Of a stretch of 39,168 nucleotides of DNA, positions 10,065 through 18,061 are shown piece after piece. The stretch's first letter is position 1. Every line of letters starts with the position of its first letter. The notes beneath the pieces were generated by a model. It did no database searches, was not told the origin of the DNA, and was given only the letters and a program-made list of their open reading frames with translations. The stretch is taken from IMG/VR virus record IMGVR_UViG_3300043466_003331, positions 1 through 39,168 of that record; one strand, written 5' to 3'. Source of the stretch: a virus. The translations under genes and the position numbers were made by a program.

Positions 10065-11330
10065 ATGACAATATTTGTTCAAATCGCCTCCTATAGAGAC
10101 CCTCAATTAGAACCAACAATTAAAGATATGTTGGAGAATGCCAAAAAACCTAAAAATATTCGTTTTGGAATTGCAAGACAATTCAGTGATGAGGACGGGT
10201 TTGATAAATTAGAGGATTATAGAAAAGACAAACGATTCAGAATTCTTGATATTCCTCATCAAGAGTCAAAAGGTGTTTGTTGGGCAAGAAATTTAACTCA
10301 ACAATTATATAGTGGTGAAACATACACCCTCCAAATTGACTCTCATATGAGATTTGAAAAAAATTGGGACGAAACTTTAATTAAAATGATTAAAGGATTA
10401 CAAAAAGATGGGTATGAAAAACCATTGTTAACAGGGTATGTTCCATCATTTGACCCTGAAAATGACCCCGCAGGTCGAGTTAATGAAGCGTGGAGAATGG
10501 TGTTTGATAGGTTCATTCCGGAAGGTGCAGTGTTTTTTTTACCTGAAACTATTCCCGGATGGAGAGAAATGAAAAAACCGGTTACTGCTAGATTTTATTC
10601 CGCTCACTTCTGTTTTACCTTAGGAGCATTTTCAATTGAAGTTCAACATAATCCGGAATATTACTTTCATGGTGAAGAAATATCAATTGCTGCTAGAGCA
10701 TATACATGGGGTTATGATTTATTTCATCCACACATTCCTGTTGTTTATCACGAATATACTCGTAAGGGTAGAACCAAACAATGGGACGATGACAAAGAAT
10801 GGGGTGAAAAAAACCGACATTCTCACTTTACCAATAGAAAATTATTTGGTATGGATGGAGAAAAACAAGAAGGGCATGATGGTCCTTTTGGATTTGGTCC
10901 TGTTAGAACTTTAAAAGATTTTGAAAAATATTCAGGTTTATTATTTGAAAAAAGAGCAATTGATAAATACACTTTAGAAAAAAATCACCCACCAAACCCA
11001 TATAATTTTGAAACGGAGCAAGAATGGAAAGATAGTTTCTGTATGATTTTCAAACATTGTATTGATGTTAGTTATGACCAAGTTCCTGAGACAGATTATG
11101 AATTTTGGGTTGTGGCGTTCCATAATGATAAAGATGACACATTGTTTAGAAAAGATGCGGATAAGAATGAAATTGCGGGGTTTATGAGAGACCCGGATAA
11201 ATACTGTAAAATATGGAGAGAATTTCAAACTGATGAATTACCATCGTATTGGGTTGTATGGCCATATTCAACATCAAAAGGGTGGTGTGATAGAATCACC
11301 GGAAGATTACATCATAATTTAGTTAGTTAA
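10065..11330 (+). CDS. Glycosyltransferase of the polypeptide GlcNAc-transferase type (GT60-like)
   Basis: 421 residues. The opening FVQIASYRDPQLEPTIKDML, the later SKGVCWARNLTQQLY, the metal-site DxH motif in LQIDSHMRFEKNWD (Asp92, His94) and HGEEISIAARAYTWGYD (about 202-218) fit the GlcNAc family typified by the Dictyostelium Skp1 and mucin-type GlcNAc-transferases (CAZy GT60). Those enzymes transfer GlcNAc from UDP-GlcNAc to hydroxyproline or Thr of acceptor proteins, with a GT-A fold. It begins 24 nt after the terminator of the mucin-like gene and is first of a four-gene operon. The acceptor is inferred to be the Thr-Pro stalks encoded upstream. The family call is by remembered motifs, moderately sure. 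Confidence 0.75.
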   Translation: MTIFVQIASYRDPQLEPTIKDMLENAKKPKNIRFGIARQFSDEDGFDKLEDYRKDKRFRILDIPHQESKGVCWARNLTQQLYSGETYTLQIDSHMRFEKNWDETLIKMIKGLQKDGYEKPLLTGYVPSFDPENDPAGRVNEAWRMVFDRFIPEGAVFFLPETIPGWREMKKPVTARFYSAHFCFTLGAFSIEVQHNPEYYFHGEEISIAARAYTWGYDLFHPHIPVVYHEYTRKGRTKQWDDDKEWGEKNRHSHFTNRKLFGMDGEKQEGHDGPFGFGPVRTLKDFEKYSGLLFEKRAIDKYTLEKNHPPNPYNFETEQEWKDSFCMIFKHCIDVSYDQVPETDYEFWVVAFHNDKDDTLFRKDADKNEIAGFMRDPDKYCKIWREFQTDELPSYWVVWPYSTSKGWCDRITGRLHHNLVS

Positions 11331-12181: not shown

Positions 12182-12915
12182 GAACATTAATAGTTACCGT
12201 TGCAATACAAATCGATAAAGATGATTTTTATTATATGGAAACATCGAAAAAATTAATCAATAGTTATCTTAATTTTACTGATTTTGATATATTAATATTA
12301 ACCAATAATATCAAATATTATGATTTTATAAAAAACGATAGAGTAATTTTATTTGATTATGAAAGTAATTTTAACGAACCCATCAAGTCATCTAATAAGT
12401 TTAACATGCATATTAAAAGATTGGCGATTAGATTAGGTTCCGAATTAAATTACGATATAATTTATCACCACGATTGTGATTGCTATGTTGACGGTTGGGA
12501 TAAGCAAAGTTATGATGATTTGGTAATTCAGGATTATGATGTGATATTCCCAACGAGTGAGAGACCACAATTAGGAAGTTTGAGGGAAAATTATAACCAT
12601 TTTCAAGAAAAAATAGATAATGAATTTAAAGGGTTGTATTACGATGAGTTAGATTTATCCCCAAATCCTGCGGAGACAAGAATTATTTTTAAAAATAATG
12701 AAAAGTTAAAAACTTTTTTAGATTTTTGGGATAAAATATCTGAAAATAATAAAAATTATTTAACATATTATTGTGGAATTTATTTTGGAACTAGTGCGAA
12801 ACATTCAAATATGAAAATGTCTTCGGTTAAAAATGAAATGGAATTTTCAAAATATGGAAAAATTAAACATAGAAATAAAACATTAAATTACTTTGGAAGT
12901 ATAATCAATGAATAA
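12178..12915 (+). CDS. Putative GT-A-fold glycosyltransferase
   Basis: 245 residues. The N-terminus MRTLIVTVAIQIDKDD leads into a nucleotide-sugar-type Rossmann half (DFDILILTNN). It is followed by IYHHDCDCYVDGWD (about 95-108), a DxD-type metal and UDP-sugar motif in the usual place for GT-A enzymes. A late NYLTYYCGIYFGTSAKHS resembles the acceptor-side segment of such enzymes. The family is not recognised with certainty. It overlaps both neighbours (4 nt upstream, 8 nt downstream), so all four genes are probably translated as a coupled set that builds one glycan. Confidence 0.55.
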   Translation: MRTLIVTVAIQIDKDDFYYMETSKKLINSYLNFTDFDILILTNNIKYYDFIKNDRVILFDYESNFNEPIKSSNKFNMHIKRLAIRLGSELNYDIIYHHDCDCYVDGWDKQSYDDLVIQDYDVIFPTSERPQLGSLRENYNHFQEKIDNEFKGLYYDELDLSPNPAETRIIFKNNEKLKTFLDFWDKISENNKNYLTYYCGIYFGTSAKHSNMKMSSVKNEMEFSKYGKIKHRNKTLNYFGSIINE

Positions 12916-14581
12916 TATAACATTAGTAACGGGAATATGGGATATTGGTAGAGGAGATTTGACAGAAGGATGGTCAAGGTCTTACCAACATTATTTAGAT
13001 AAATTCGAACAACTATTACAAGTTGAAGAAAATATGATAATTTTTGGAGATAAAGAACTTAAGGACTTTGTTTTCAAAATTAGAAATGAATCTAACACTC
13101 AGTTTATTGAACGACCATTATCTTGGTTTACCAATTCTGAATTTTATAATATGATTCAAGTTGTTAGAACAAGACCAAGTTGGATAACACAAGTTGGATG
13201 GTTAGAAGAATCAACCCAAGCGAAATTAGCGAATTACAATCCTTTGGTTATGTCCAAAGTATTTCTTCTTCACGATGCCAAGATATTAGATAAATTTGAT
13301 TCCAAATATATGTTTTGGATTGATGGTGGATTAACAAATACAGTACACCCGGGATATTTTACTCATGATAAGGTTTTAGATAAATTATTAAAATACATTT
13401 CAAAATTCTCATTTATTTGTTTTCCTTATAATGCGGAAACAGAAATACATGGGTTCGAATATAATAAATTAAATGAAATTGCCGGTAGTAAAGTAAATAA
13501 AGTTGCCAGAGGTGGTTTTTTCGGTGGTCCTAAAGAAAGTATTGCTGATATTAATTCAATCTATTACACATTATTAAAATCAACTTTAGAAGAAGGGTAT
13601 ATGGGAACTGAAGAATCAATCTTTAGTATTATGACATATAAACATTCTGATTTAATTAATTATTTTGAAATTGAGTCAAACGGACTAGTTGGTAAATTTT
13701 TTGAAGATTTGAAAAATGATAATTTAGTTGTTAAAAATGAGGGTAAAGTGTCTGTTGTTAATAATTTAGACATTAATAAAGTTGGTTTATATGTTATCAC
13801 TTTTAATAGTCCTAATCAATTTGAAACTTTGGTTAAATCGATGTTGGAATATGATTCCGATTTTATAACAAAAACTAAAAAGTTTTTACTCGATAATTCA
13901 ACTGACCTATCAACAACTCCAAGATATAAAGAATTGTGTGAAGAATATGGATTTGAACACATTAAGAAAGATAATTTAGGTATTATGGGTGGTAGGATAT
14001 TTATTGCGGAACATTTTAATGAAACTGATTTGGATTTCCAAATTTTTTTCGAAGATGACATGAATTTATATCCAAAAAAAGGTGAGGTATGTAGAAACGG
14101 GTTTCCTCGTTATGTTGGAAATTTATATCAAAAATCGTTAGAAATTATTCAAAAAGAAAATTTTGATTTTTTAAAATATTCCTTCACCGAGTTCTACGGG
14201 TCAAATGATGTACAATTTTCATGGTACAACGTTCCACAAGATTTTAGAAATACACATTGGCCAAACAACCCTAAATTACCGGTTCAAGGTTTTGACCCAA
14301 ACGCACCAAGAACCAATTTTAAAAATATTAAAGTTCATAAAGGATTACCCTATGTGAATGGTGAAATTTATATTTCAAACTGGCCTATCATATTGAGTAA
14401 AGAAGGTAATTATAAATGTTATTTAGAAACTAAATGGCAATTTGCCTATGAACAGACTAGTATGTCTTATGTCTATCAAGAAACTGTGAAGGGAAATATA
14501 AACCCTGGTATATTATTATTAACCCCAATCGAACACGACCGGTATGAACACTATTCACACGAATTGAGAAAAGAATCTTAA
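12908..14581 (+). CDS. Two-domain glycosyltransferase (HtrL/YibB-like plus GT2-like)
   Basis: 557 residues. Residues 1-275 resemble the gene at 11336 (MFWIDGGLTNTVHPGYF, ARGGFFGGPKES, GTEESIFSIMTY). Residues about 297-557 form a second domain: GLYVITFNSPNQFETLVKSM, a central DNLGIMGGRIFIAEH and the acidic motif FQIFFEDDMNLYPKKG, the EDD type of metal site in GT2-like enzymes. Two catalytic-type domains in one chain suggest consecutive sugar additions. It is the last gene of the glycosyltransferase operon and its stop overlaps the convergent HNH endonuclease gene by 4 nt. The donor and acceptor sugars cannot be told. Confidence 0.65.
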   Translation: MNNITLVTGIWDIGRGDLTEGWSRSYQHYLDKFEQLLQVEENMIIFGDKELKDFVFKIRNESNTQFIERPLSWFTNSEFYNMIQVVRTRPSWITQVGWLEESTQAKLANYNPLVMSKVFLLHDAKILDKFDSKYMFWIDGGLTNTVHPGYFTHDKVLDKLLKYISKFSFICFPYNAETEIHGFEYNKLNEIAGSKVNKVARGGFFGGPKESIADINSIYYTLLKSTLEEGYMGTEESIFSIMTYKHSDLINYFEIESNGLVGKFFEDLKNDNLVVKNEGKVSVVNNLDINKVGLYVITFNSPNQFETLVKSMLEYDSDFITKTKKFLLDNSTDLSTTPRYKELCEEYGFEHIKKDNLGIMGGRIFIAEHFNETDLDFQIFFEDDMNLYPKKGEVCRNGFPRYVGNLYQKSLEIIQKENFDFLKYSFTEFYGSNDVQFSWYNVPQDFRNTHWPNNPKLPVQGFDPNAPRTNFKNIKVHKGLPYVNGEIYISNWPIILSKEGNYKCYLETKWQFAYEQTSMSYVYQETVKGNINPGILLLTPIEHDRYEHYSHELRKES

Positions 14582-15162
14582 TTTAATATTTTATTACTTT
14601 TTTTCAAATTATCTTCGGCCCATAGTGGCTGAAGATTTGTATAATGACAAAGTTTATATATTTCTTCTTCAGTTTTTGCTGATGATAAGGGTGTTATGTG
14701 GTCAATATGCCATTCATTTCTATTTTCCCAAGACATTCCTTTTGTAAATTTTTGTTCTAAATACTCTTTTAAAAATTCCGGAGAACAACCAATAATATGA
14801 AATGTTTTATTATTTTTTGTGACATTTCTGTCTTTTAAAAATAATCCAAGCCTTGACCTCATATTTTTTTTTAACTTAAATAAAACATCGATGTTAGATT
14901 TGATGTACGACCATTCATTTTGATAATTAGGGTTTTTATTAAACCAATCTTTTTTAGATTTTTTTACTTTTTCTTTATTGTTATCAACATATTTTTGTTT
15001 GATTTTATCAACTTTATCTTTGTTTTTTTTGTTATATAAAATAGATTGTTTATTTGTGCAGAATTTACATTCAGGTCTTTTACCGTCAAACTTATCTTTG
15101 TTATTATAAAACTCACAAACATCTTTTTCGATTTTACACTTACTGCATATCTTTTTTTCCAT
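14578..15162 (-). CDS. HNH homing-type endonuclease, module 1
   Basis: 194 residues. An N-terminal zinc finger (Cys6, Cys9, Cys32, Cys35) is followed by a Lys-rich helical linker. A C-terminal HNH nuclease core has WHIDHITPLSSA (His152, Asp154, His155) and HYTNLQPLWAEDNLKKSNK (Asn176, Asn185). This matches free-standing phage HNH endonucleases that cut DNA and spread by homing. Its 5' end overlaps the ribbon-helix-helix gene by 23 nt in another frame. The C-terminal 75 residues and their DNA are nearly the same as in the second module (17035-17745), while the linkers differ in length. Its 3' end overlaps the convergent glycosyltransferase gene. Confidence 0.9.
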   Translation of the reverse strand: MEKKICSKCKIEKDVCEFYNNKDKFDGKRPECKFCTNKQSILYNKKNKDKVDKIKQKYVDNNKEKVKKSKKDWFNKNPNYQNEWSYIKSNIDVLFKLKKNMRSRLGLFLKDRNVTKNNKTFHIIGCSPEFLKEYLEQKFTKGMSWENRNEWHIDHITPLSSAKTEEEIYKLCHYTNLQPLWAEDNLKKSNKILN

Positions 15163-15395: not shown

Positions 15396-15773
15396 ATGGA
15401 GTTTTATATCAAACAAAATGCAACCTTACCGGTTTTGAAGATGAGCGTGGTGAAAGACGGTAGAGCCGGATATCAACAACTTATGCGAGATTTAGAGGTG
15501 TCAACAATATTTTTCACAATGATTGATGTGGAAACTGGCATTCCTAAAATAGTATCGGCACCGGCCGAAATAGTAAATTTAATCTTACCTGAAGGTTCTG
15601 AGCCCGAATATTATATTTATTTTAAATTTAGTTCAAGAGATACAAACACTCCGGGAAGATATGAGGGACAATTCTTAATTAAAAACGACGAAGGTAATCT
15701 AATTCTTCCAATTAGAGAAGAATTATATATCAATGTTCAACCAAGTTTTATATCGGAAACGGCTTGTTGCTAA
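15396..15773 (+). CDS. Small beta-sandwich virion-type protein
   Basis: 125 residues: MEFYIKQNATLPVLKMSVVK, a central STIFFTMIDVETGIPKI, then PEYYIYFKFSSRDTNTPGRY and NLILPIREELYINVQPSF. The alternating strands and the order 'input type, Phe/Met-rich strand, PGRYEGQF' recall the Ig-like N-terminal domain of baseplate or fibre proteins such as BppU, here as a stand-alone protein. That likeness is by pattern; no family is recognised with certainty. It ends in two cysteines. It stands alone between the divergent HNH module and the doubled host-type promoter and has its own TATTTATA motif, so it is probably expressed late with the structural genes. Confidence 0.7.
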   Translation: MEFYIKQNATLPVLKMSVVKDGRAGYQQLMRDLEVSTIFFTMIDVETGIPKIVSAPAEIVNLILPEGSEPEYYIYFKFSSRDTNTPGRYEGQFLIKNDEGNLILPIREELYINVQPSFISETACC

Positions 15774-15790
15774 AAAAAAATAAAAAAAAG

Positions 15791-15821
15791 TTTGGCAGGT
15801 TCAAAATAAGTTGTATCTTTG
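15791..15821 (+). promoter_or_regulatory. Bacteroidota-type promoter P1 (-33/-7)
   Basis: TTTGG at 15791 and TATCTTTG at 15814-15821 fit the Bacteroidota TTTG...TAnnTTTG consensus with about 19 nt between them. They are preceded by an A-tract that may act as an UP element. Confidence 0.75.
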
Positions 15822-15840
15822 TCAAAGAAAATAAGTGAAA

Positions 15841-15848
15841 TATTTATC
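15841..15848 (+). promoter_or_regulatory. Phage promoter-type motif TATTTATC between P1 and P2
   Basis: TATTTATC sits in the spacer of the duplicated host-type promoter. It could add late, phage-directed transcription of the downstream RNA. Confidence 0.4.
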
Positions 15849-15869
15849 ACAAAAAAAAATAAAAAAAAG

Positions 15870-15900
15870 TTTGGTAGGTTCAAAATAAGTTGTATCTTTG
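15870..15900 (+). promoter_or_regulatory. Bacteroidota-type promoter P2 (-33/-7)
   Basis: The second copy: TTTGG at 15870, TATCTTTG at 15893-15900, identical spacing to P1. Transcription would start near 15906 and run into the ncRNA. Confidence 0.75.
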
Positions 15901-15905
15901 TCAAA

Positions 15906-16115
15906 GAAAATAAGTGAGGTTTTGTACTTTAACACTAAAAAAAGTATTCGGGAATATTTCGGTATTCTTGTCTTAGTTGAAAATCTCTTGTTACGGCTTG
16001 AGATACGTCGAAAGATGGTGACTTTGGGCTCACGGTATACAGCCTAACCGCGTTGGTCTAACCGATGATAGATGTACTGTTAGAAAAAAAATGGGACTAA
16101 TGTCCCATTTTTTTG
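15906..16115 (+). ncRNA. Probable structured non-coding RNA of unknown family
   Basis: About 205 nt between host-type promoter P2 and an intrinsic terminator, without a credible ORF and richer in G and C than its surroundings. Hairpins visible by eye: a 7-bp stem closed by CGGG (15942-15959); ATCTC/GAGAT (15983-16004); a GAAA tetraloop stem (16006-16017); GTGA/TCAC (16018-16033); CGGT/ACCG (16033-16050); and a 5-bp hairpin TTGGT-CTA-ACCGA (16053-16065). TTTAACA (15928-15934) can pair with TGTTAGA (16078-16084), closing the molecule just before the terminator. CTAACCG occurs twice. It does not resemble tRNA, tmRNA, RNase P RNA or 6S RNA. It may be an early regulatory RNA; the structure is hand-drawn, not computed. 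Confidence 0.55.
16084..16115. terminator. Bidirectional intrinsic terminator
   Basis: ATGGGAC (16091-16097), loop TAAT, GTCCCAT (16102-16108), flanked by an A-run and a T-run. It ends the ncRNA on the plus strand and the gene 16118-16759 on the minus strand. Confidence 0.85.
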
Positions 16116-16117
16116 TT

Positions 16118-16759
16118 TTAATTAACTTTAATTGTTGGTTTGTATTTTTGAAGAGTTTGGTTATCAAATGGAACACCTTTTAATTGAGTAACAAATTTTA
16201 CTTCCATATAATCAGTATCATTAACTGGGGTTCTTTTTATCAGTTCAATAATAATACTAAAAACATTATCAACATCAATCATTAAAAAATTACGACCTGT
16301 GTTTGAATTCCAAGGCTTACGACCCTTTGTTGCGGTATTAGCTTCAATTATTTTTAAGATTAAATTATCAATATGATTGAAGAATAAATTAATTCCTTCA
16401 TATTTTCCAGGATTAATAATATCTTCTCTATCTGAATAAATTGGGTCACTTAATCGATATACTCTATAAGCAAAATGGTCACTTACAGAACCTAGTTTAA
16501 ATAATCGGTTACATTTACCTTTATTATTGTACGAACCACAAAATCCTTTTGGATTATTATAATTACTTATAAAGTAATTTGTCAAATCATTAACAATGTC
16601 TTTAGTGAATATTCTATTACCATCACTATCAATAAATGATGATGGGGTTTTATTTTCCGAAATAATTTGTTTAAGTAATGGAGAATCAGGTGAAATTTCC
16701 GTAATTGTAATTTTTGGTTCGGTATATTCTCTTAATATTTGTCTAATTAAATCCTTCAT
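16118..16759 (-). CDS. Unknown phage protein with head-targeting-like N-terminus
   Basis: 213 residues, no recognised family. It begins MKDLIRQILREYTE, a short amphipathic leader with the (I/L)-x-Glu signature shared by several unrelated proteins of this window. The rest is a mixed alpha/beta domain with PKGFCGSYNNKGKCNRLF (two Cys, about 90-105), SVSDHFAYRVYRL and DNVFSIIIELIKRTPV. It might be a virion-packaged effector or enzyme, but nothing in it proves this. The ATG is only 3 nt after a TATTTATC motif (16763-16770, minus), so its transcript may be leaderless. It is convergent to the ncRNA and shares its terminator. Confidence 0.75.
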   Translation of the reverse strand: MKDLIRQILREYTEPKITITEISPDSPLLKQIISENKTPSSFIDSDGNRIFTKDIVNDLTNYFISNYNNPKGFCGSYNNKGKCNRLFKLGSVSDHFAYRVYRLSDPIYSDREDIINPGKYEGINLFFNHIDNLILKIIEANTATKGRKPWNSNTGRNFLMIDVDNVFSIIIELIKRTPVNDTDYMEVKFVTQLKGVPFDNQTLQKYKPTIKVN

Positions 16760-16762
16760 AAT

Positions 16763-16770
16763 GATAAATA
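16763..16770 (-). promoter_or_regulatory. Phage promoter-type motif TATTTATC
   Basis: On the minus strand it reads TATTTATC followed by ATT and the ATG at 16759. This is the tightest spacing in the window. Confidence 0.5.
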
Positions 16771-16790: not shown

Positions 16791-16822
16791 TTTGGTAGAT
16801 TGAAATCTAAGTATTACTTTTG
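16791..16822 (+). promoter_or_regulatory. Bacteroidota-type promoter P3 (-33/-7)
   Basis: A third copy of the A-tract plus TTTGGTAG (16791), with TACTTTTG at 16815-16822, fits TTTG...TAnnTTTG. It drives the 37-residue protein gene at 16865. Confidence 0.75.
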
Positions 16823-16864: not shown

Positions 16865-16978
16865 ATGAAAACAGTTACCTTCACAATGCAAGAGATATGG
16901 GCGGCTTCAAGACCATCAGTTCAAAAAAGTAAGAAAACTTACAACAGAAAACCAAAACACAAGAAAATGTCTTACTAA
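16865..16978 (+). CDS. 37-residue basic protein with its own host-type promoter
   Basis: A short ORF (ATG at 16865, TAA at 16976-16978). The first half reads MKTVTFTMQEIWAASRPSV; the second is Lys/Arg-rich (KSKKTYNRKPKHKK). I do not recognise it. That it is a real gene is supported by the frame sitting precisely between a Bacteroidota-type promoter (16791-16822) with a 42-nt leader and an intrinsic terminator 7 nt after the stop. Size, strong basic charge and a host-recognised promoter are typical of early phage peptides that act on host RNA polymerase, ribosomes or nucleases; this role is inference. It is near a tandem promoter pair of the same sequence type (15791, 15870). Confidence 0.65.
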   Translation: MKTVTFTMQEIWAASRPSVQKSKKTYNRKPKHKKMSY

Positions 16979-17034: not shown

Positions 17035-17745
17035 TTAAATTAATATTTTATTACTTTTTCTTAAATTATCTTCAGCCCATAGTGGTTGAAGATTTGTATA
17101 GTGACAAAGTTTATATATTTCTTCTTCAGTTTTGGCTGACGATAATGGTATTATATGGTCGATATGCCATCCGTATAATCCGTGATTATCCCAAGACATT
17201 CCTTCAATGAATTGTTGTTCTAAATGTTCTTTTAGAAACTCCGGAGAACAACCAACGATATCGAAAGTTTTATTACTTTTTGTGATATTATTTAGTTTAA
17301 GATATTCTCTTATTCTTTTACGAGTATTATTCCATACTTTAAACACTGGGTTAGGATTATTTTTTATTCGGTGATTTTTACCATATAAGTTAAATTTATC
17401 TCTATTTTTCTTACGATATTCTTTATGGTATGATAAAATATGTTCCTTATTCTTTTTGTAATATATTTTTTTCTGTTCTGAAATGATGTTTTTATTAGAT
17501 TCTCTATATTCTTTTCTCAGTTTATTGAGTTTTTCACGATTTAGTTCTCTCCACTCTTTTATTTTTTCAATATTATCTTCGTAATATTTTTTACGATGTA
17601 ATATAGTTTTTTCTCTATATCTTTTAGAATAAAGTTTTTGACAACTCTTACACTCACTTCTATAACCGGTTGAGTTATGTTTATCCATATTAAAATTACA
17701 AACCTCCTTTTCTTCTTTACACTTACTGCATATCTTTGTTGTCAT
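17035..17745 (-). CDS. HNH homing-type endonuclease, module 2
   Basis: 236 residues, paralogous to the HNH protein at 14578. The same zinc finger is present (Cys6, Cys9, Cys32, Cys35). A longer Lys/Glu/Arg coiled linker (about 40-130, about 40 residues more than copy 1) follows, then SNKTFDIVGCSPEFLKE and the HNH core GWHIDHIIPLSSA ... HYTNLQPLWAEDNLRKSNK. All catalytic positions are kept, so both copies may be active. It overlaps its ribbon-helix-helix partner by 23 nt, as in module 1. It lies next to the DNA polymerase gene, a common address for phage homing endonucleases. Confidence 0.9.
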   Translation of the reverse strand: MTTKICSKCKEEKEVCNFNMDKHNSTGYRSECKSCQKLYSKRYREKTILHRKKYYEDNIEKIKEWRELNREKLNKLRKEYRESNKNIISEQKKIYYKKNKEHILSYHKEYRKKNRDKFNLYGKNHRIKNNPNPVFKVWNNTRKRIREYLKLNNITKSNKTFDIVGCSPEFLKEHLEQQFIEGMSWDNHGLYGWHIDHIIPLSSAKTEEEIYKLCHYTNLQPLWAEDNLRKSNKILI

Positions 17746-17893: not shown

Positions 17894-17991
17894 TCCACAA
17901 ATATAAAAAAAGTTTCACTAATATAAAACAAATAAATAATTTATTTTAGAAACTGATTGTTGTTAATTTGATTCTTAAATTTAAATAACTA

Positions 17992-17999
17992 TATTTATC
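17992..17999 (+). promoter_or_regulatory. Phage promoter-type motif TATTTATC before DNA polymerase
   Basis: TATTTATC, then TACG and an ATG at 18004 that opens a 9-codon leader ORF. The polymerase start is 62 nt downstream. Confidence 0.5.
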
Positions 18000-18003
18000 T
18001 ACG

Positions 18004-18033
18004 ATGAGTAAGGTGAACTTCACAACTAAGTGA
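18004..18033 (+). promoter_or_regulatory. Possible leader peptide / operator upstream of DNA polymerase
   Basis: ATG, eight more codons (product MSKVNFTTK), TGA. It holds the inverted repeat GTGAACTTCAC (18013-18023). Placed between the promoter motif and the polymerase start, it may be a translated leader or a protein-binding site. T4 gp43 is known to bind its own translation start, so autoregulation is conceivable here. Confidence 0.3.
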
Positions 18034-18061
18034 TTGCTAATATGCCACTCCAAGATAATAT

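Follow-up and report, generated by a model that had tools for sequence, protein, structure and literature searches.

A 39-kb viral contig (IMGVR_UViG_3300043466_003331, positions 1-39,168; hereafter the window), which encodes a family B DNA polymerase gene and a tail sheath gene, carries an RNA belonging to a family that, as judged by sequence comparison, is covarying, pseudoknotted, absent from Rfam, and previously undescribed, and that is carried by viruses infecting Bacteroidota-type bacteria. We propose that this RNA belongs to a mobile, polymorphic cassette of two genes, together with a convergent late gene whose product would begin with a T4-like capsid-targeting N-terminus. The RNA and the protein swap together between viruses, which suggests a partnership, most likely that of an injected enzyme with its antidote. 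Our preferred reading, to which we assign a probability of about 45%, is that the ORF product is packaged in the virion and injected as an effector, in one of its two families (family B) probably an RNase of the BECR/RelE fold, and that the RNA, made by the host polymerase, serves as the antidote. The sequences show the RNA family and the cassette; toxicity, injection, and neutralization are predictions. The initial annotation of this DNA had described an early structured RNA of no known family, and our analysis supports that description for an RNA that is predicted to be strongly expressed and is probably immediate-early.

The RNA transcription unit and its promoters

The initial annotation had placed a doubled host-type promoter ahead of a terminated, noncoding segment. 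The features of this region are as follows.

15791 to 15821, + strand: Bacteroidota-type (host sigma) promoter, upstream copy (TTTGGCAGGTTCAAAATAAGTTGTATCTTTG), in a window-specific 79-bp tandem duplication
15870 to 15900, + strand: Bacteroidota-type (host sigma) promoter, proximal copy, which is the copy conserved in relatives
15906 to 16115, + strand: structured noncoding RNA (predicted transcript; 5′ end estimated from promoter spacing)
16085 to 16114, + strand: RNA terminator, a 13-bp stem followed by a T-rich tail

Two Bacteroidota-type promoter copies of the form TTTG-N19-TATCTTTG indeed lie exactly 79 bp apart, and TRF detected a 79-bp period across 15772-15917 with 98% matches. The only exact matches to TTTG-N19-TANNTTTG in the 39 kb are these two promoters (0.58 expected), a count that is weak evidence by itself because at least two matches also arose in 14 of 100 shuffles. 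In every relative checked, the promoter upstream of the RNA is kept in both sequence and position. The doubling did not hold up as a meaningful feature: the duplication is private to the window, and a single promoter precedes the RNA at each of twelve further loci examined, namely a bacterial copy and ten phage RNA variants (one represented by two contigs), so that promoter doubling was rejected as a general functional feature. The phage-type TATTTATC reported between the promoters is present (15841-15848), but it lies inside the private duplication and is only mildly enriched (10 copies against 5.5 expected; 2 of 100 shuffles).

About 205 nt separate the proximal promoter from the end of the RNA, without a convincing ORF. 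As had been stated, the region is noncoding: only chance frames of 20-49 aa occur, and these are not kept in relatives, since the spacing between conserved motifs is 17, 20, 21, or 27 nt and one relative has a stop. A coding RNA was rejected as well; some RNAs of the A type, one of the two subtypes described below, have a frame of 16-24 codons starting MSKK, with a stop in locus L288 and a motif spacing that is not a multiple of three. The terminator is strong, and its near-palindromic form means that it probably also stops the transcript of the convergent ORF. The RNA region folds better than shuffled sequences (MFE -54.4 kcal/mol, z -3.0, terminator included), in part because of this terminator. 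One-sided base changes are of the G-U type as written, which favors the + strand as the RNA.

The Rfam 15 covariance models gave 0 matches at the gathering threshold across the whole window, and a permissive scan of the RNA region returned weak matches only, far under the family cut-offs and mostly to the terminator hairpin, in agreement with the earlier view that the RNA belongs to no recognized family. No tRNA or tmRNA was found. The RNA came through each of the computable checks that had been suggested for it, with no match in the Rfam search, compensatory changes in the covariation analysis, and relatives in the conservation analysis.

Structure and covariation of the RNA

The structural elements of the window's RNA are listed below.

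15949 to 15970, + strand: 5′ hairpin (CGGGAATA/TATTCTTG), kept in the bacterial copy (locus L330) with an A-U to G-U change
15975 to 16023, + strand: P2, in which 15975-15978 (AGTT) pairs with 16020-16023 (GACT), enclosing GAAAA (15979-15983), P3, and the core hairpin
15984 to 16003, + strand: P3 (TCTC/GAGA), weak or absent in some relatives and tentatively comparable across the family
16004 to 16019, + strand: core hairpin UAC[A/G]UC-NNNN-GA[U/C]GGU, the most conserved element
16026 to 16050, + strand: H-type pseudoknot, with stem 1 at 16026-16030/16041-16045 and loop 16033-16036 (CGGT) pairing with 16047-16050 (ACCG)
16051 to 16067, + strand: post-pseudoknot hairpin (CGTTGGT-CTA-ACCGATG), from the MFE fold

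The elements named in the initial annotation, a GAAA-capped hairpin, a CGGG element, and two copies of CTAACCG, are all present, but the fold proposed there is not supported. Its closing stem (15928-15934/16078-16084) pairs in the window but loses 2 of 7 pairs in L330, the closest relative (87% identical), and was rejected. The actual architecture, missed by that annotation and by the MFE fold, consists of P2, the core hairpin, and the H-type pseudoknot. Helix P2, GAAAA, the UAC[A/G]UC-NNNN-GA[U/C]GGU hairpin, and the pseudoknot form a core common to all members, in which the P2 arms sit immediately 5′ of GAAAA and immediately 3′ of GA[U/C]GGU.

The P2 arms differ fully between members and are always paired (AGUU/GACU, CUUAAUU/GAUUAAG, GUAGUU/GACUAC, AUAGUC/GACUAU, UGGAC/GUCCA, and UGUC/GACA). 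When the 3′ arms were reassigned among members (40320 permutations), the native pairing was the best possible, with 6 ties; in the corresponding test of the pseudoknot helix, the native assignment was unique (1/5040). The core hairpin is 100% paired in all members, with an A-U to G-C double change in L288 and L324. Across the six B-type sequences, 89.8% of pair cells form and 10 of 20 pairs show double changes, four of them in P2 and four in the pseudoknot, giving a covariation score reached by 0 of 500 shuffles. Across the five A-type sequences, all 32 pairs in 7 helices form in every sequence; five pairs are double changed, one of them in the pseudoknot, and a hairpin at the same place as 16051-16067 covaries. 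These structures were proposed by eye on the same sequences, which makes the pair counts supportive rather than blind; slid controls were far lower. Stem 1 of the pseudoknot also shows a compensatory change between the window and L330 (GGGCU/AGCCU to GAGUU/AGCUU). The case for the pseudoknot rests on the joint tests, because a single-sequence shuffle test was weak (p 0.003 to 0.46).

These features bear on the idea that the RNA regulates phage genes, whether the neighboring ORF or others, acting in cis or through base pairing (in the manner of antisense control or transcription interference), in which case packaging and toxicity would be irrelevant. Such regulation would suit the convergent layout and the shared near-palindromic terminator, yet the RNA stops at that terminator with no overlap with the coding part of the ORF, and a compact covarying pseudoknot is unnecessary for antisense control. 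We regard this explanation as very unlikely.

Distribution of the RNA

The RNA was found on at least 22 viral contigs, which represent 11 distinct phage RNA sequences, some of the contigs being near-identical viruses. The core pattern was derived from the first relatives and scanned in viral contigs, and ORF profiles were searched independently. The pattern searches demanded parts of the core and would pass over diverged members; in two of the three viral scans a promoter-like TTTGT upstream was demanded as well. Most loci among the matches listed for a core-only pattern scan were coincidences in coding sequence. The two subtypes recognize each other: a model built from the B type (R1) retrieves A members with E values of 3e-5 to 1e-3, and a model built from the A type (R2) retrieves L317 with an E value of 2e-5.

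A scan of bacterial genomes found one copy, 87% identical and equipped with its own promoter and terminator.

7080 to 7370 of L330: solitary chromosomal RNA copy in Flavobacterium aciduliphilum DSM 25663

No family B ORF was found in the F. aciduliphilum genome. Matches to R1 occurred in 1 of 399 genomes of the genus and in 1 of 397 genomes of the family, the same genome both times, which suggests that the bacterial copy was probably acquired. The sole R2 match in bacterial genomes (E 0.009) was without the core and was dismissed as chance. Searches of known phages and plasmids gave no relatives of the RNA core, the B ORF, or the A ORF beyond promoter-like or chance matches. As a side observation, the F. 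aciduliphilum copy lies among small unidentified ORFs and a gene with a Fib_succ_major domain.

The convergent ORF and joint replacement of the cassette

Immediately beyond the RNA terminator lies a gene on the opposite strand.

16118 to 16759, - strand: convergent ORF, 213 aa, family B; candidate virion-packaged effector and possible BECR/RelE-fold RNase

All 22 phage contigs with the RNA have, directly past its terminator, a convergent ORF of family A or family B that begins with the N-terminal tag described below; this 22/22 corresponds to 11 RNA variants because several contigs are near-duplicates. The ORF profile searches gave two new loci, L317 and L324, and both proved to have the RNA; the first ORF search had matched L004 through the shared tag only, and later profiles were tagless. 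Family B ORFs are carried by the window, L008, L086, L302, the L198 group, and L317, and family A ORFs by L005, L100, L138, L288, and L324. The families match each other in the tag only (the first ~22 residues), and RNA subtype follows ORF family without exception, A-type RNA accompanying an A ORF in 5/5 variants and B-type RNA a B ORF in 6/6. On all modules the two genes are convergent and have separate promoters, one host-type and one putatively of the TATTTAT type.

The cassettes of the window, L005, and L008 share a position: they lie between the DNA polymerase gene and a gene of 125 aa, two genes that are joined without an insert in most of the 80 closest relatives examined. Elsewhere, the cassette lies upstream of the homologue of the 125-aa gene (L086, L198, L317) or in a different context (L100, L138). 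The DNA polymerase gene is 82-88% identical across the window, L005, and L008. Between the window and L005, identity is 87% in the upstream gene, 86% in the promoter, 90% in the tag region, 85% in a small ORF, and 84% in the DNA polymerase gene; in the RNA and in the ORF body it falls to that of shuffled sequence, for the window against L005 and against L008 alike, and in the comparison with L005 the replaced block is bracketed by the promoter and the tag region. By these alignments, phages that are otherwise similar differ by a joint replacement of RNA and ORF body, and the layout is that of a swappable effector-immunity cassette. The invariant linkage and the joint replacement of RNA and ORF point to the ORF protein as the partner of the RNA.

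The initial annotation had taken the RNA to be possibly regulatory or to sequester a host factor. We keep this suggestion as a rival, but linkage and joint replacement point instead to the convergent tagged ORF, which that annotation had not included. The rival holds that the RNA alone hits a host factor or defense early, perhaps as a decoy for a host RNA-dependent toxin or by titration of a host protein, that the ORF encodes a separate injected counter-defense protein, and that the two travel together as early arms-race cargo. Immediate expression from a host-type promoter and the solitary copy in F. aciduliphilum, which is without a B-family ORF, would both fit such an independent RNA. Precedents are the phage-encoded pseudoknot antitoxin mimic pseudo-ToxI of PhiTE, directed against ToxIN (PMC3475682), and T4 IPI, a packaged anti-restriction protein (PMC9026906). 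Yet independent action leaves the 22/22 linkage, the matching of RNA and ORF types, and the joint replacement unexplained by itself, and the RNA has neither Rfam similarity to ToxI-type families nor tandem repeats. We consider this rival rather unlikely.

The N-terminal tag and predicted packaging

Two features at the start of the convergent ORF suggest when its product is made and where it goes.

16727 to 16759, - strand: N-terminal tag MKDLIRQILRE, similar to a T4 capsid-targeting sequence, with an L-x-E protease-type site at its end
16763 to 16770, - strand: TATTTATC, putative phage late-type promoter of the convergent ORF

The T4 capsid-targeting sequence is a propeptide of ~10 residues that is cut off by gp21; targeting needs residues 4 and 7, and processing needs residues 8 and 10 (PMC9026906; PMC7411985). 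The tag follows the pattern M..LI..IL-x-E, with L9 and E11 invariant in both ORF families, and the tagged ORFs have a short putative N-terminal propeptide ending in a gp21-type L/I-x-E site. The same N-terminus stands on three neighboring, otherwise different genes in L004 (3142-5969), which identifies it as a tag. A prohead protease (Peptidase_S77, PF03420, the gp21 family) is encoded by 6 of 9 related contigs, three of them with the module; these nine are contigs other than the window, which is itself a fragment. Of the 16 tagged ORFs, 13 have TATTTAT no more than 25 nt upstream, compared with 22% of all ORFs. From the tag, Peptidase_S77, and TATTTAT we infer late expression, packaging, and injection of the ORF product, while an L-x-E inside a leucine-rich helix is a short motif, which counts against the packaging reading. 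Further unrelated proteins with an M..LI..IL-x-E N-terminus are encoded near the module in L100 and L304, and a search for this pattern could list the packaged proteins of these phages.

Timing also bears on the proposal that the RNA works with the injected protein as its cofactor, in a ribonucleoprotein whose effector would be guided, activated, or scaffolded by the RNA and not inhibited by it. The same linkage and co-replacement would be expected of such a complex, and a conserved core flanked by variable outer parts is reminiscent of a constant part for protein binding combined with variable specificity. The RNA, however, is predicted to be early and the protein late and injected, which fits a meeting at infection and not joint assembly, and profile library searches found no known RNA-guided domain in the ORFs. 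We find a cofactor role improbable.

Candidate activity of the effector body

The AF2 model of family B is of moderate quality (pLDDT 70.5, pTM 0.71). Its residues 87-194 form a strand, helices, and three strands, a topology compatible with the BECR/RelE fold. Several RelE/ParE-fold toxins were among the weak VIA matches, all over residues 86-206 (Z 2.1-3.1), the best Z of 3.1 being at a level common by chance. In BFVD, a phage site-specific RNA endonuclease of the RegB type was matched without significance (TMt 0.41, E 0.5), and Foldseek searches of the family B model against PDB and BFVD gave nothing at E below 0.001.

BECR RNases have a His-plus-Ser/Thr arrangement, and some are predicted to be injected by phages (PMC5512222). 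In the six family B sequences, H95, R99, R102, and T191 are invariant; the AF2 model places the first three in a helix and T191 in the last strand. H95 and T191 correspond to the His in the N-terminal helix and the Ser/Thr in strand 4 that mark this arrangement. Pfam searches at E up to 10 matched no PBECR or RelE/ParE model, Pfam, PHROG, and PADLOC held no model supporting an RNase in family B, and profile searches of the ORFs against known toxin families gave no sequence match. The model suggests that the family B body may be a BECR/RelE-fold RNase. For family A, the structure model was unusable (pLDDT 38), and PADLOC matched the ORF to a type II restriction-enzyme model (E 0.0017).

Proposed mechanism

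In the antidote reading, the ORF product would be made late and packed in the head, like T4 IPI-III and Alt, where a gp21-like protease would trim it after L-x-E, and the trimmed product would be injected with the next genome. The family B body would then act as a BECR/RelE-fold RNase, and the unrelated-looking family A body would be some other effector or a distant version of B. Host polymerase would transcribe the RNA at once, and the RNA would bind the effector and hold it in check. Perhaps the harm is confined to cells, resident elements, or rival phages without the matching RNA, or the effector acts only until the RNA appears. It speaks against an antidote that the A and B bodies differ, so that one RNA core would have to serve two bodies, and that the RNA of F. 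aciduliphilum has no B-family partner in the genome.

It is tempting to go further and see here a virion-delivered, polymorphic protein-RNA toxin-antidote system, in which T4-like Bacteroidota phages would load an RNase-type effector into the capsid and an immediate-early pseudoknot RNA would shield the productively infected cell, with RNA in the role that immunity proteins have in polymorphic toxin systems and the F. aciduliphilum copy as captured host immunity to the injected effector, an extension that we judge unlikely. What the comparison provides is a new covarying, pseudoknotted RNA family, outside Rfam, tied to a capsid-tagged protein. If the pairing is one of effector and RNA antidote, toxin-antitoxin logic would reach virion-delivered proteins, and there would be a testable answer to the purpose of the variable internal proteins of T4-like phages. 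The A and B types supply cognate and non-cognate RNA-protein pairs for such work, and the bacterial copy may be host immunity.

Comparison with known systems

The antitoxin RNAs of type III toxin-antitoxin (TA) systems are pseudoknots, encoded in bicistronic units with the RNA upstream of the toxin, one promoter, and a terminator between the two (PMC5086642). Like ToxIN, CptIN, and TenpIN, the phage cassette sets an H-type pseudoknot RNA beside a possible endoRNase of similar size, with matched RNA and protein types and a terminator between the two genes. Unlike these single operons with the RNA upstream, it is convergent and has separate promoters, and its RNA is single and long, with an extra multi-helix core, whereas type III antitoxins are tandem short repeats; TRF found no tandem repeat inside the RNA, the promoter region alone being duplicated. 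The phage protein also has a capsid-type tag, and the RNA has no Rfam match to type III antitoxins. Because both the tandem repeats and the single operon are missing, we do not file the cassette as type III TA.

Another parallel is AbiF with its noncoding RNA RCd22, a prophage type III-like pair of Clostridioides difficile in which the RNA neutralizes AbiF toxicity in trans (PMC12373285). Both combine a phage-borne protein with a dedicated, non-repeat structured RNA. AbiF, however, is related to Abi_2 and Cas13, whereas Pfam gave no Abi_2 match for either ORF family and Rfam none for the RNA, and the phage cassette is convergent and capsid-tagged.

Like the products of the convergent ORFs, T4 IPI-III and Alt are polymorphic and otherwise unrelated late proteins that begin with a tag of ~10 residues, closed by a protease-type x-E site, and that come from T4-like phages encoding a gp21-type protease. 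The T4 internal proteins differ in being without a dedicated partner RNA, and packaging is here predicted from sequence. With the PBECR/BECR-fold phage RNases (PMC5512222) and T4 RegB, family B shares a helix with an invariant His and a last strand with an invariant Thr, and with the PBECR proteins also predicted packaging and injection; it differs in lacking a Pfam PBECR match even at a permissive threshold, and the fold similarity is weak. Finally, PhiTE pseudo-ToxI (PMC3475682) is likewise a phage-encoded pseudoknot RNA, one that acts against a toxin, but it is a repeat mimic of a host antitoxin without a linked phage effector.

Genes around the cassette

The window cassette is flanked by two related endonuclease VII/HNH-type genes, at 14578-15162 and 17035-17745, both on the - strand, which may be mobilizers of the cassette. 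Their presence on both sides would also suit a hitch-hiking or artifactual origin, in which a homing or mobile segment between HNH endonuclease genes would give rise to the RNA as a transcript without function, as would the lack of the cassette in most of the 80 closest relatives examined. Against such an origin, both RNA subfamilies show compensatory changes and the promoter-terminator unit has been kept, which points to selection on the RNA; moreover, in the L005 and L008 cassettes the stretch from the RNA to the DNA polymerase gene is free of HNH genes. We consider this explanation extremely unlikely.

A third promoter and a small gene follow the convergent ORF.

16791 to 16822, + strand: third host-type promoter (N20 spacing), which drives a 37-aa small ORF
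16865 to 16978, + strand: small basic ORF, 37 aa (MKTVTFTMQEIWAASRPSVQKS...; MKTVTFTMQEIWAASRPSVQKSKKTYNRKPKHKKMSY)

The 37-aa ORF is kept beside the module in five phage types (the window, L005, L008, L100, and L138), is absent beside the others, and has weak similarity to DUF7230 and to small phage families. Further upstream in the window, genes of the Glycosyltransferase (GlcNAc) family and the HtrL/YibB family (10065-11330 and 12908-14581) adjoin tail and replication genes. Part of the 125-aa gene's end recurs at 17940-17975 (GAAACTGATTGTTGTTAATTTGATTC), just ahead of the DNA polymerase leader, apparently an old junction left by cassette insertion. The leader itself (17992-18061; TATTTATCTACGATGAGTAAGGTGAACTTCAC...CCACTC) precedes the DNA polymerase gene in nearly all relatives and is hairpin-like, possibly forming a structured 5′ leader.
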